The position numbers and the translations under genes were made by a program. Under the pieces are notes generated by a model, which saw only the letters and a list, made by a program, of their open reading frames with translations, was not told where the DNA came from and searched no databases. Shown piece after piece: positions 37,260 to 39,793 of a DNA stretch of 64,000 nucleotides. The stretch lies in the NCBI RefSeq assembly GCF_003633775.1, contig NZ_RBIN01000004.1, forward strand, positions 248,001 through 312,000. Direction: 5' to 3'. Positions within the stretch are counted from its first letter, which is position 1. The number at the start of each line of letters is the position of its first letter. This DNA is from Kushneria sinocarnis. GTDB taxonomy: Bacteria > Pseudomonadota > Gammaproteobacteria > Pseudomonadales > Halomonadaceae.

Positions 37260-38366
37260 TCAGAGGGAGATTTCGGCACCGGCCGACGCCATCGACGGCG
37301 CCCGGGCGAGGCGCTCGGCGGCTGCCAGCAGCAGGCTGCGGGTCTGCGCCCAGTCCAGACAGCCATCGGTGATCGATACCCCATGCTGCAGCTCGCCGCC
37401 CATGGGCTGGCGCCCGCCTTCCAGATGGCTTTCGATCATCACCCCGGTGAGGGCCTGCTGCCCTGCCAGACGCTGCTCGATGACCTGCTCGAATACCTCG
37501 GGCTGTCGAAAGGGATCCTTGCCACTGTTGGCGTGCGAGCAGTCCACCATCAGCGAGGGCGGGTGACCGGCATGTTCGAGTGCCCGGCAGGCCGCCTCGA
37601 TGCTCCCCGGGTCGCAGTTGGGGCCCTGATGGCCACCACGCAGTACCAGCTGCGTATCCGGATTGCCGGCGGTTTCGATCACCGCCGGTCCGCCCTGCTC
37701 ATCAACGCCGAAGAAGCGATGACCGTGGGCGCTGGCCGCCATGGCATCCAGCGCCACCCCGATCCCGCCATCGGTGCCGTTCTTGAACCCCACCGGGGCC
37801 GGAAAACCGCTGGCCAGCTCGCGATGAATCTGGGATTCGGTGGTACGCGCCCCGATCGCCGCCCAGCTCACCAGATCATCGATATAGGGCGCCGTCATCG
37901 GCTGGAGCAGCTCGGTCGCCACCGGCACCCCGAGCGCGACGATGTCGCGCATCAGCCGACGGGCACGCCACAGCCCGCCCGCCATGTCATCGCGACCATC
38001 GAGATCGGGATCATAGGCAAAACCCTTCCAGCCCACGGTGGTACGCGGTTTCTCGATGTAGACACGCATCACCGGCAGCAGCTGTTCACCGACCCGGGCC
38101 GCCAGCTCCTGCAGATGCCGGGCGTACTCCATGGCGGCGTGTTCATCGTGAATCGAACAGGGGCCGGTCACGACCAGCAGGCGATCATCCCTGCCATGGA
38201 TGATATCGCGGATGGCGCTGCGCTGATGGGCAATGGTACGGGTCAGCTCGTCGGCAAGCGGCAGCTCGCGCTTCAGTTCGGCACTGCTCGGCAGCGCACA
38301 GCGGGTCCGGCGCGCGGGCAGCTCGGATGCAGCGGTGGTAGCGGGCGTGGTTTCGGAAATCGACAT
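37260..38366 (-). CDS. 3-deoxy-7-phosphoheptulonate (DAHP) synthase, class I AroF/AroG/AroH type
   Basis: The enzyme joins phosphoenolpyruvate and erythrose 4-phosphate in the first step of aromatic amino acid synthesis. The 368 residues contain GPCSIHD (metal ligand Cys70), EKPRTTVGWKG, GFKNGTDGG, the RGGHQGPNCD histidine ligand and DCSHANSGK, so the catalytic set is complete. Which amino acid inhibits it cannot be read from the sequence with confidence, so I give no isozyme symbol. GGAG lies 9 nt before the ATG. The 400 bases upstream carry small ORFs, hairpins and a terminator that point to regulation by aromatic amino acids. The next gene downstream is phoX, with its own promoter. Confidence 0.95.
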   Translation of the reverse strand: MSISETTPATTAASELPARRTRCALPSSAELKRELPLADELTRTIAHQRSAIRDIIHGRDDRLLVVTGPCSIHDEHAAMEYARHLQELAARVGEQLLPVMRVYIEKPRTTVGWKGFAYDPDLDGRDDMAGGLWRARRLMRDIVALGVPVATELLQPMTAPYIDDLVSWAAIGARTTESQIHRELASGFPAPVGFKNGTDGGIGVALDAMAASAHGHRFFGVDEQGGPAVIETAGNPDTQLVLRGGHQGPNCDPGSIEAACRALEHAGHPPSLMVDCSHANSGKDPFRQPEVFEQVIEQRLAGQQALTGVMIESHLEGGRQPMGGELQHGVSITDGCLDWAQTRSLLLAAAERLARAPSMASAGAEISL

Positions 38367-38389
38367 CAGGGGCGCTCCAGGGTTCGGGC

Positions 38390-38413
38390 GCCGTCATGCG
38401 TCAGCACAACGGC
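38390..38413 (-). promoter_or_regulatory. Hairpin between the aromatic leader ORF and the DAHP synthase start
   Basis: GCCGTTGTGC and GCATGACGGC pair over 10 positions, two of them G-T, around a 4-nt loop. The stop codon of the upstream leader ORF sits in the loop, and the DAHP synthase ribosome-binding site follows about 10 nt later. A ribosome ending or stalling in the leader would decide whether this hairpin forms. Confidence 0.55.
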
Positions 38414-38511
38414 GCGGATGTTCGTGGGTGCAGATGACAGGCACGGCCCGTACGGCGGGCTGCCGACCGCCAGTGAAAGGGAAAGCCGGAAAAGTAGCTG
38501 TAATAACGCAT
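38401..38511 (-). CDS. Aromatic-rich leader peptide of DAHP synthase (36 residues)
   Basis: This short ORF starts MRYYSYFSGFPFHW, with seven Tyr, Phe or Trp codons among the first 14, then continues basic to ...TSAPLC. AGGAG lies 7 nt before the ATG, an excellent site. Such clusters are the hallmark of leader peptides that sense charged aromatic tRNAs, as for the E. coli pheA leader. It lies between an intrinsic terminator and the DAHP synthase gene, on the same strand, and its stop falls in the loop of a hairpin. No T-run follows it, so control of translation or of Rho access is as possible as classical attenuation. That the peptide is translated is inferred. Confidence 0.68.
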   Translation of the reverse strand: MRYYSYFSGFPFHWRSAARRTGRACHLHPRTSAPLC

Positions 38512-38546
38512 GCGAATGCTCCTGCCGGGCCCGATCAGGGCGTGAT

Positions 38547-38584
38547 AAAAAAAACCCCCGGTGGCGGCTGCCGACCGGGGGTTT
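38547..38584 (-). terminator. Intrinsic terminator / attenuator upstream of DAHP synthase
   Basis: On the minus strand AAACCCCCGGT and ACCGGGGGTTT form a 10-11 bp stem around an 11-nt loop, followed by a run of eight T. It stands after the 41-residue ORF and before the second leader ORF, 180 nt ahead of the gene. With no obvious promoter between it and DAHP synthase, it should act as a regulated (leaky) terminator. Confidence 0.88.
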
Positions 38585-38610
38585 CCTTGGGGCGGGCAGC
38601 CTGATCGCTC

Positions 38611-38643
38611 TCAGGCACGCCCGAATGACTCAGGCGTGCCTGA
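38611..38643 (-). promoter_or_regulatory. 11-bp hairpin overlapping the end of the first leader ORF
   Basis: TCAGGCACGCC and GGCGTGCCTGA form a perfect 11-bp stem. Its first arm covers the last codons of the 41-residue ORF and the TGA lies in the loop. The second arm can alternatively pair with TCAGGC at 38599-38604, and GGCTGCC at 38595-38601 can pair with the terminator loop at 38566-38572. These mutually exclusive pairings resemble an attenuator. Confidence 0.65.
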
Positions 38644-38755
38644 TACCAAACCAATAGCTGCCGAAATGACCGACATGATCCATGCACGGCGCCAGCCCTT
38701 CGCCACTGCAGGCGAAGCATCCGGAATGGTTGACTGACGCTACAGGCATCATCAT
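38630..38755 (-). CDS. 41-residue ORF ending in an aromatic cluster; possible leader peptide
   Basis: The ORF begins with three consecutive ATG codons, 4 to 10 nt after a perfect AAGGAG. It contains three cysteines (CFAC, then APC) and ends HFGSYWFGIRHA, with Phe31, Tyr34, Trp35 and Phe36 just before a strong hairpin and terminator. This could be a leader peptide of DAHP synthase. Alternatively it is a small protein with a CxxC motif, last gene of a unit that starts at 39010. An internal ATG at 38683 would give a 17-residue version. I do not recognise a family. Confidence 0.55.
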   Translation of the reverse strand: MMMPVASVNHSGCFACSGEGLAPCMDHVGHFGSYWFGIRHA

Positions 38756-38767
38756 GCGTCTCCTTCG

Positions 38768-38863
38768 TTACTCGTCTTCATCTTCCTCGGGCATGCCCGA
38801 GAGCACGCCTCGACTCATTCGCGGGCAGCGGCGATACCACTCTCCGGCTGCTGCGGTCTCCGG
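38768..38863 (-). other. In-frame extension beyond the amber stop of the small membrane ORF
   Basis: After the TAG at 38864-38866 the same frame stays open for 31 more codons to a TAA at 38768. The translation (PETAAAGEWYRRCPRMSRG, then ending GMPEEDEDE) looks like a natural polar tail of a membrane protein. It ends 12 nt before the next ORF, a normal operon distance. It may be the lost C-terminus of a broken gene, a readthrough product, or chance. Confidence 0.45.
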
Positions 38864-39010
38864 CTACAGCTCGCTCCAGAAGAACAGCCCCGGCAGTGCC
38901 GCCAGCAGCGCTGTCACAAGCAGGGCGGCCACCATCAGTACGGCAAGCAGCTTTTCATGACGTTCATGGCGCCTGTGCAGACGGCGGAACAGGGTGATGC
39001 GTGAACGCAT
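38864..39010 (-). CDS. Small single-pass membrane protein, possibly cut short by an amber codon
   Basis: The 48-residue product has a basic N-terminus (MRSRITLFRRLHRRHERHEK), one strong membrane helix (LLAVLMVAALLVTALLAALPG) and ends FFWSEL at TAG. GGAGGT lies 7 nt before the ATG, a very good ribosome-binding site, which is the main reason to call it. With the 31-codon extension it would be an 80-codon protein with an acidic tail. A change of CAG to TAG would explain the break. No function or family is recognised. It lies downstream of folM on the same strand. Confidence 0.6.
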   Translation of the reverse strand: MRSRITLFRRLHRRHERHEKLLAVLMVAALLVTALLAALPGLFFWSEL

Positions 39011-39079
39011 GGAGCCACCTCCGAGTGAACCCTGGTCACCGGTAACCGGCGACTGCCCGATTGTTGCATGTCATTACCT

Positions 39080-39793
39080 TTACTTCACATGACGCCCGCC
39101 GTCAACGGGTAGCGTGGCACCGGTGATGTAACCGTTGTCGAGCAGATAGCGCACACTCTGCCAGATCACCCCCGGCCCGGGCGGCGCCGGAATCATCGAG
39201 CGGGCATTGAGATGCGCCAGATATTCGGCATCATCCGTTTCGTTGAGCATGATGGCCGCCGGCGCAATGGTATTGACCTTGATCTCGGGACCGAACAGCG
39301 CTGCAAACGATCGGCTCAGGTTTTCCAGCCCGGCCTTGGTGGCCGCATAGGCCACATGCCGGCGCGACCCCCGGCTGGCCGCGAAGTCGGTCATGTGGAT
39401 GATGTCGCGCATCGGTTCGCGGCAGGCCATCAGCAGTTCCTGCACGTGCAGGTTGATCAGATAGGGCGCCTGCATGTGAATGCGAAACATCCGCTCGAAG
39501 GTATCTCCGGCCTGGTCATCGAAACGATCGGCTTCCCACAGCGAGGCGTTGTGAATCACCGCCCGCAGCCGCGGCGTACTCTCCCTGAGCGCCTCGATGA
39601 ACCGCATGATGCCGGATTCGCTGGAGAAATCCGCCTGTAGCGCCGTGATACCGCGCCGGCGCAGCGCCTCCACGGCTTCGCGTTCACGCCGATAGGTAAT
39701 GATGACCGGGTGCCCGTCATCCTGCAGCCGTTCGGCGCAGTAGCGGCCCAGCCGCTGGGCGCCGCCGGTAATCAGGATCGGCGCCTGGCTCAT
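39080..39793 (-). CDS. folM: Dihydromonapterin reductase / short-chain dehydrogenase FolM
   Basis: FolM reduces dihydromonapterin, and weakly dihydrofolate, with NADPH. The 237-residue SDR fold shows ITGGAQRLGRYCAERL at about 7-22 (cofactor-binding), the HNAS motif, catalytic Tyr-Lys in YAATKAG, and NTIAPAAIML. The arginine-containing GGAQRLGR loop is typical of FolM and pteridine reductases rather than of FabG. It overlaps the fre gene by 4 nt. Substrate is inferred from the family. Confidence 0.82.
   Translation of the reverse strand: MSQAPILITGGAQRLGRYCAERLQDDGHPVIITYRREREAVEALRRRGITALQADFSSESGIMRFIEALRESTPRLRAVIHNASLWEADRFDDQAGDTFERMFRIHMQAPYLINLHVQELLMACREPMRDIIHMTDFAASRGSRRHVAYAATKAGLENLSRSFAALFGPEIKVNTIAPAAIMLNETDDAEYLAHLNARSMIPAPPGPGVIWQSVRYLLDNGYITGATLPVDGGRHVK

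Follow-up and report, generated by a model that had tools for sequence, protein, structure and literature searches.

What controls the expression of DAHP synthase (DAHPS) in the Halomonadaceae, and does a short open reading frame (ORF) crowded with aromatic codons just ahead of the gene take part in it? The enzyme catalyzes the first, committed step of aromatic amino acid synthesis and is the usual control point in aromatics engineering. We addressed the question in a stretch of 64,000 nucleotides from Kushneria sinocarnis, referred to below as the window, and in related genomes. A sequence-only reading of the window had proposed that translation of the short ORF senses the charging of Tyr, Phe and Trp tRNAs and acts without a terminator of its own. 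Comparison with relatives supports such a sensor, but as one half of a larger device. With moderate confidence, we favor a two-stage leader that would gauge charged tRNA-Tyr, tRNA-Trp and tRNA-Phe and set DAHPS expression, with a first leader ORF (L1) acting on transcription and a second (L2) acting on translation.

The leader region and the DAHPS gene are carried on the minus strand, a strand that the sequence-only reading did not state, in the 5' to 3' order L1, stop hairpin, terminator, L2, stop hairpin, GGAG and DAHPS (Table 1). The 36-codon ORF of that reading, our L2, is real. Its AGGAG is spaced as claimed, seven of its first 14 residues are Tyr, Phe or Trp, and the downstream gene is indeed a DAHP synthase, separated from the L2 stop by 34 nt. 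The aromatic crowding sets L2 apart within the window: it alone has at least seven aromatics in the first 14 residues among the 1443 ATG-initiated ORFs of at least 20 aa on both strands, and it alone has at least six among the 34 window ORFs preceded by a strong Shine-Dalgarno (SD) sequence. Fourteen-codon stretches with at least seven aromatics number 8 of 127916 in the window.

Table 1. Features of the leader region and DAHPS gene, in positions of the window
Feature	Position	Strand	Details
L1, first leader ORF	38755-38630	minus	41 aa, MMMPVASVNHSGCFACSGEGLAPCMDHVGHFGSYWFGIRHA followed by the stop codon; C-terminal end ...GSYWFGIRHA
L1 control codons TAT TGG TTT (Y-W-F)	38648..38656	minus	5 codons ahead of the stop; read from the sequence
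L1 1:2 hairpin	38643-38611	minus	14 pairs, L1 stop within; -27.7 kcal/mol
Intrinsic terminator with T8	38585-38547	minus	-27.5 kcal/mol; directly 5' of L2
Shine-Dalgarno AGGAG of L2	38523-38519	minus	7 nt 5' of the ATG
L2	38511-38401	minus	36 aa, MRYYSYFSGFPFHWRSAARRTGRACHLHPRTSAPLC; aromatic codons 3 to 14
L2 box remnant TGGCGGTCGG	38463..38472	minus	compared with TGGCGATTTAGC...CGGTCGG in relatives; by eye
CCA CGA ACA TCC in L2	38416..38427	minus	by eye similar to the in-frame TGT CGA ACA CC that Pseudomonas L2 carries close to its end
L2 stop hairpin	38415-38388	minus	GCGCCGUUGUGC [UGAC] GCAUGACGGCGC; 12 pairs including two G-U; UGA in the loop
DAHPS Shine-Dalgarno GGAG	38378-38375	minus	foldable under GGCGCC...GGAGCGCC; -12.3 kcal/mol for the segment alone
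DAHP synthase, class I family	38366-37260	minus	368 aa; Pfam DAHP_synth_1, E 9e-75

Further upstream, about 40 nt 5' of L1, the minus strand carries a perfect palindrome, TCGGGCATGCCCGA (38785-38805), which is a possible operator or hairpin. A consensus scan of positions 38300-39150, the surroundings of the palindrome included, found no sigma-70-like promoter. A small ORF of 48 aa with one hydrophobic stretch lies just 5' of L1 (38864-39010, minus strand) and matched no Pfam family over the cut-off; many relatives likewise have small hydrophobic ORFs 5' of L1. No Rfam family exceeded its cut-off in the window. The second DAHPS copy of the window genome (L002) is not preceded by such a leader pair, and one other ORF met the filter there.

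The lack of a T-run after L2 had been read as a departure from classical termination. No T-run follows L2, but an intrinsic terminator ending in T8 stands upstream of it, after the overlooked L1, and classical termination is therefore not absent from the region. The L1 stretch with its terminator folds far more stably than chance (z -5.44, equalled by 0 of 200 shuffles), and the stability of the stretch containing L2 and its hairpin is ordinary (z -0.36, with 73 of 200 shuffles equally stable). L1-type ORFs, selected by their Y-W-F motif, are present in 143 of 143 Halomonadaceae loci, 127 of them with an ATG and an SD-like stretch, and among the 124 picked Halomonadaceae L1s with W-F, 123 encode it as TGG TTT. 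A terminator-like structure is found 3' of L1 in 141 of the 143 loci, or in 87 under a narrower rule.

L1 thereby combines a short ORF, with end-product codons near its end, and an intrinsic terminator. In the window it also has a mutually exclusive antiterminator, as the 5' arm of the terminator can alternatively pair upstream (GGCUGCC:GGCAGCC, duplex -20.7 kcal/mol). These are the elements of transcription attenuation, which is probably the function of L1. Stalling of the ribosome on Y-W-F would favor the antiterminator; without a stall the terminator would form and a short RNA would remain, which in Pseudomonas would be the sRNA P15. As a separate observation, many L1s read UUUAGC after the Trp codon, as L2 does. 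The two leaders perhaps arose by duplication.

P15 is catalogued as Rfam RF00627. In loci of the Pseudomonas-type family f21, which we infer to be the Pseudomonadaceae, it covers the last part of L1 and continues through the terminator, 5' of DAHPS. The model scored 100-126 bits in all five f21 loci tried (L168, L172, L175, L177 and L189) and exceeded its cut-off in 110 of 148 f21 genomes; one match was in family f16 (G633). Eight of nine Halomonadaceae loci tried match at 23-37 bits, under the 70-bit cut-off. The match in the window is likewise weak (38672-38555, 24.4 bits, under the 70-bit gathering cut-off), and a genome search with a stricter filter left the window genome unmatched. The window is at most a distant P15 homologue and, by the curated rule, a non-member. 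PMC2527527 already suggests that P15 may be a cis element, a riboswitch. The catalogue entry describes an sRNA gene, whereas the RNA would here be an attenuator of DAHPS; we call L1 an attenuator of a known kind, a reinterpretation of P15 drawn from sequence.

How widely L2 accompanies L1 was assessed in loci from several families. DAHPS was matched in 275 of 275 Halomonadaceae genomes searched, from which 144 upstream regions were chosen non-randomly, by match rank and genus; L137 was left out because its coordinates were wrong, giving n = 143. L2-type ORFs are present in 126 of these 143 loci. A peptide rule, parts of which had been tailored to the window, its sister genome L003 and L112, identified 123 of them, and three (L062, L070 and L122) were recognized on reading, from five read among the 20 loci that failed the rule. 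L2 was not found in 17 of the 143 loci, 15 of which belong to genus g20, where L1 sits near the gene. Both leaders lie 5' of DAHPS in 38 of 38 P15-carrying f21 loci read, comprising the 30 best P15 matches and 8 more from a further search. A third family, f43, has L2 in three of five loci and lacks it in two. Searches by tblastn placed DAHPS downstream and on the correct strand in 43 of 43 loci (38 of f21 and 5 of f43).

The sequence-only reading was to be abandoned if neither the short ORF nor its hairpin proved conserved among close relatives. L2-type ORFs are conserved upstream of DAHPS, and that objection therefore fails. Inspection by eye recognized the hairpin spanning the L2 stop in just two genomes, that of the window and L003, where it has 11 bp.

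A model of L2 (R1), built on the long form alone, matched 81 of the 99 genomes in genus g76; five further g76 loci that were read have an L2 of the short kind. Under the stricter filters of the large searches, R1 matched 20 of 390 genomes across the order, 18 of them in f1 or f21, and 2 of 369 across the class, one in f1 and one weakly (G1132). Weak matches in G443 and G448 are, by eye, not upstream of DAHPS. Named records containing the L2 core come from Pseudomonas, from Halomonadaceae genera and from one MAG labelled Paucimonas, among 80 listed of at least 119 stretches. NCBIfam contained no family for six L1 and L2 peptides, nor did Pfam for five.

The L2s have in common an RNA box, UGGCGAUUUA. 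All 120 Halomonadaceae L2s with W-R-F or W-R-Y encode its Arg as CGA, and in 119 of them the next codon is TTT; the background, taken over codons 1 to 49 of DAHPS, is 55 CGA among 915 Arg codons. Both codons are present in 29 of 29 f21 L2s. Conservation of the box therefore extends beyond the residues to the nucleotides. The box is also tied to a reading frame, as the best upstream SD-ATG is in frame with it in 254 of 255 cases. In the eight-codon stretch leading up to the box Trp, aromatics make up 349 of 960 residues, and their fraction falls to 0.005 after W-R-F. A second in-frame CGA (CGA TGT or TGT CGA ACA CC) is strongly conserved near the L2 end in Halomonas and Pseudomonas loci. The box may resemble the anticodon arm of tRNA-Tyr. 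One locus, L122, keeps the letters of the box and pseudoknot and has GGG as its Trp codon; there the RNA seems to be retained even without the Trp codon.

In L2s of the long type, the sequence 3' of the box can form an H-type pseudoknot, with helix 1 CGGUCGG:CCGACCG, helix 2 GCCACC:GGUGGC and variable loops. Scored on the same 81 sequences from which the structure was derived, 97.0% of cells are paired and 8 of 14 pairs have changed on both sides. Of the 50 double-change cells, a single outer pair supplies 28. In 500 shuffles, which ignore relatedness, none of the measures was reached, and pairing fell to 50% or less when the partners were slid. The alignment holds 81 of 118 distinct cores; those omitted are L004-L011 (8), L112 and 28 others, mostly close relatives, and the window and L003, which have no box, were never part of it. 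RNAalifold, which cannot write pseudoknots, favors UGGCG:CGCCA, a pairing incompatible with helix 2. The short L2s (g44, g92, g170 and some g76) have the box but no pseudoknot.

A near-invariant unpaired box next to a covarying pseudoknot, with its CGA fixed throughout, might instead be the signature of an RNA that binds a ligand or protein, the overlying ORF being secondary. We consider this quite improbable. The near-invariant unpaired box is read as codons; the inner loops of the pseudoknot vary, the short types have the box without the pseudoknot, and a plain aptamer would need neither the in-frame start nor the aromatics crowded before the box. The position of an H-type pseudoknot a few bases 3' of an invariant codon string is also what would be expected if programmed frameshifting fused L2 to DAHPS. 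We discarded such a fusion, to which we attach hardly any credence, on the varying frames: relative to DAHPS, L2 falls into three frame classes of 71, 35 and 17 loci, and in Pseudomonas-type loci about 40-49 nt of spacer lie beyond the L2 stop.

The short types indicate how L2 might act on the gene. In 17 of 17 short-type L2s, a sample of close relatives with 12 from one genus, the box is complementary to the interval between the DAHPS SD and AUG, with energies of -11.8 to -15.8 kcal/mol that were matched by 0-4% of shuffles. The register of this pairing in g92 differs from that in g44 and g170. When a ribosome was simulated at the Trp codon, predicted accessibility of the DAHPS ribosome-binding site (RBS) rose from 0.38 to 0.57 in g44 (12 genomes), and a ribosome at the stop gave 0.36; the Trp-codon mask had an effect in the same direction in g170 (0.40 to 0.55) and g92 (0.41 to 0.54). 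As modelled, the logic of this pairing and mask response is that of translational attenuation. The control codons UGG CGA UUU themselves could mask the DAHPS RBS, and it would be released when a ribosome stalls on the L2 aromatic codons.

For the long types, nested folding showed no effect of the mask (0.41 to 0.41 in 123 Halomonadaceae, 0.54 to 0.54 in 11 g76). A segment that shares bases with the helix 1 3' arm paired better with its cognate RBS than with permuted ones, at p 0.0095-0.014 as the best of 20 windows across 45 Halomonadaceae clusters, which is nonsignificant after correction; these RBS tests kept L022 and L023 despite a misplaced DAHPS start. We infer that the pseudoknot and SD masking are mutually exclusive in the long types. 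The pseudoknot, located just 3' of the control codons, would probably compete with the SD-masking pairing. A universal mask formed by pairing of the box with the DAHPS start codons (AUGAAYGCC) was also considered and rejected: several relatives that have no L2 also start ATGAACGC, and the duplex energies for the start codons are near to, or weaker than, those for internal codons (-6.44 vs -6.11, -4.97 vs -5.76 and -4.46 vs -7.31).

L2 is a putatively translated leader ORF that has sensing codons and no terminator of its own; a crude scan found an intrinsic terminator 3' of L2 in 0 of 123 loci. The same result would be expected if translation of L2 shielded or exposed a Rho-loading site, with a stalled ribosome or the pseudoknot deciding termination before DAHPS, and terminator-less leaders have been explained in this way (PMC1262725). 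Rho alone would leave the complementarity between box and RBS in all 17 short types unexplained, and we regard it as an improbable basis for control. Translational attenuation, through a switch that is itself predicted, is probably the function of L2, and we would call this leader a new variant of that mechanism.

The L2 of the window departs from these types. In the window and in L003, whose DAHPS is 83% identical to that of the window, L2 is divergent, and sequence comparison found neither CGATTTAGC nor a 3' arm for helix 1. The window L2 has apparently lost 15 nt in frame at the box. Both genomes retain the L2 SD and an in-frame ORF that has the aromatic codons and, close to its end, a CGA. 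The other members of the window genus (L004-L011) keep the box and, by eye, have no pseudoknot arms.

The stop hairpin offered another candidate for control in the window. It had been described as a 10-bp hairpin with the stop in its loop, through which control may work near the RBS. The stop does lie in the loop, but the stem is longer than described (Table 1). By computation, its 3' arm could alternatively pair over the DAHPS SD in the window, and there and in L003 the hairpin may take the role of the long-type pseudoknot in competing with an SD-masking pairing. Folding with simulated ribosomes did not bear out control through this hairpin: accessibility of the window SD was 0.03-0.13 whatever mask was applied, and simulated stalls did not open it.

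This unresponsiveness, together with the loss of the box and pseudoknot arms in both genomes, could mean that L2 is decaying in the window species and that L1 is the sole remaining regulator of DAHPS; the 15 g20 relatives seemingly manage without L2. We hold this to be rather unlikely, while giving it real weight, as the SD, the in-frame ORF, the aromatic codons and the hairpin spanning the stop all persist in the window and L003. The window L2 may still function in a variant form or may be a remnant, and its proposed switch is the most conjectural part of the two-stage scheme.

We tentatively extend the scheme to the Halomonadaceae, the Pseudomonadaceae and part of f43, where P15 would in truth be a transcription attenuator, followed by L2 as a previously undescribed second leader whose control codons double as the near-invariant RNA box. 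In the long form, the pseudoknot beside the box would form when a ribosome stalls and so switch DAHPS translation. We judge this wider proposal to be almost evenly balanced between right and wrong. If true, it would describe an amino acid pathway with two serial ribosome-sensing stages, transcription and then translation, at the committed aromatic enzyme, and an RNA catalogued as a Pseudomonas sRNA would turn out to be the product of an attenuator. The conserved pseudoknot lies inside a reading frame, and its switching is testable in Pseudomonas.

Comparisons with known systems draw on the available portions of the papers cited. The accessible portions of the open-access literature, a scope outside which most subscription papers fall, yielded no description of paired leaders ahead of DAHPS in these bacteria, and the portions of PMC2965389 and PMC8297930 contained nothing on the gene. 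A predicted motif before Shewanella aroF is given in PMC2659441, which in the part available cites a tyr-tRNA attenuator from work on E. coli. The uORFC-13-1 motif before aroF in Acholeplasma (PMC8632094) similarly combines a leader ORF with a terminator and was proposed to control DAHP synthase, but it belongs to unrelated bacteria and has one uORF in the portions available. The tandem attenuators of Salmonella mgtCBR (PMC3641672) resemble the present locus in that a single leader carries two short ORFs belonging to separate controls; they differ in responding to two signals, ATP and proline, in both acting on transcription, and in serving no amino acid pathway enzyme. Translational attenuation with two leader ORFs or peptides is also described for ermB (PMC8274638), where stalling is induced by an antibiotic, in contrast to amino acid supply here.

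The nearest precedent in logic, from the text available, is the LEU element ahead of leuA in Actinobacteria (PMC1262725), whose authors doubted control by a leader peptide and proposed a protein. That element is defined by Leu codons before leuA in Actinobacteria; the present leaders have aromatic codons before DAHPS in a different phylum, and the similarity is one of logic alone. The LEU element further differs in having a single leader with no transcription attenuator ahead of it. What the two share is a leader ORF with end-product codons, a conserved pseudoknot, control codons that pair with the SD of the gene, and the lack of a terminator.
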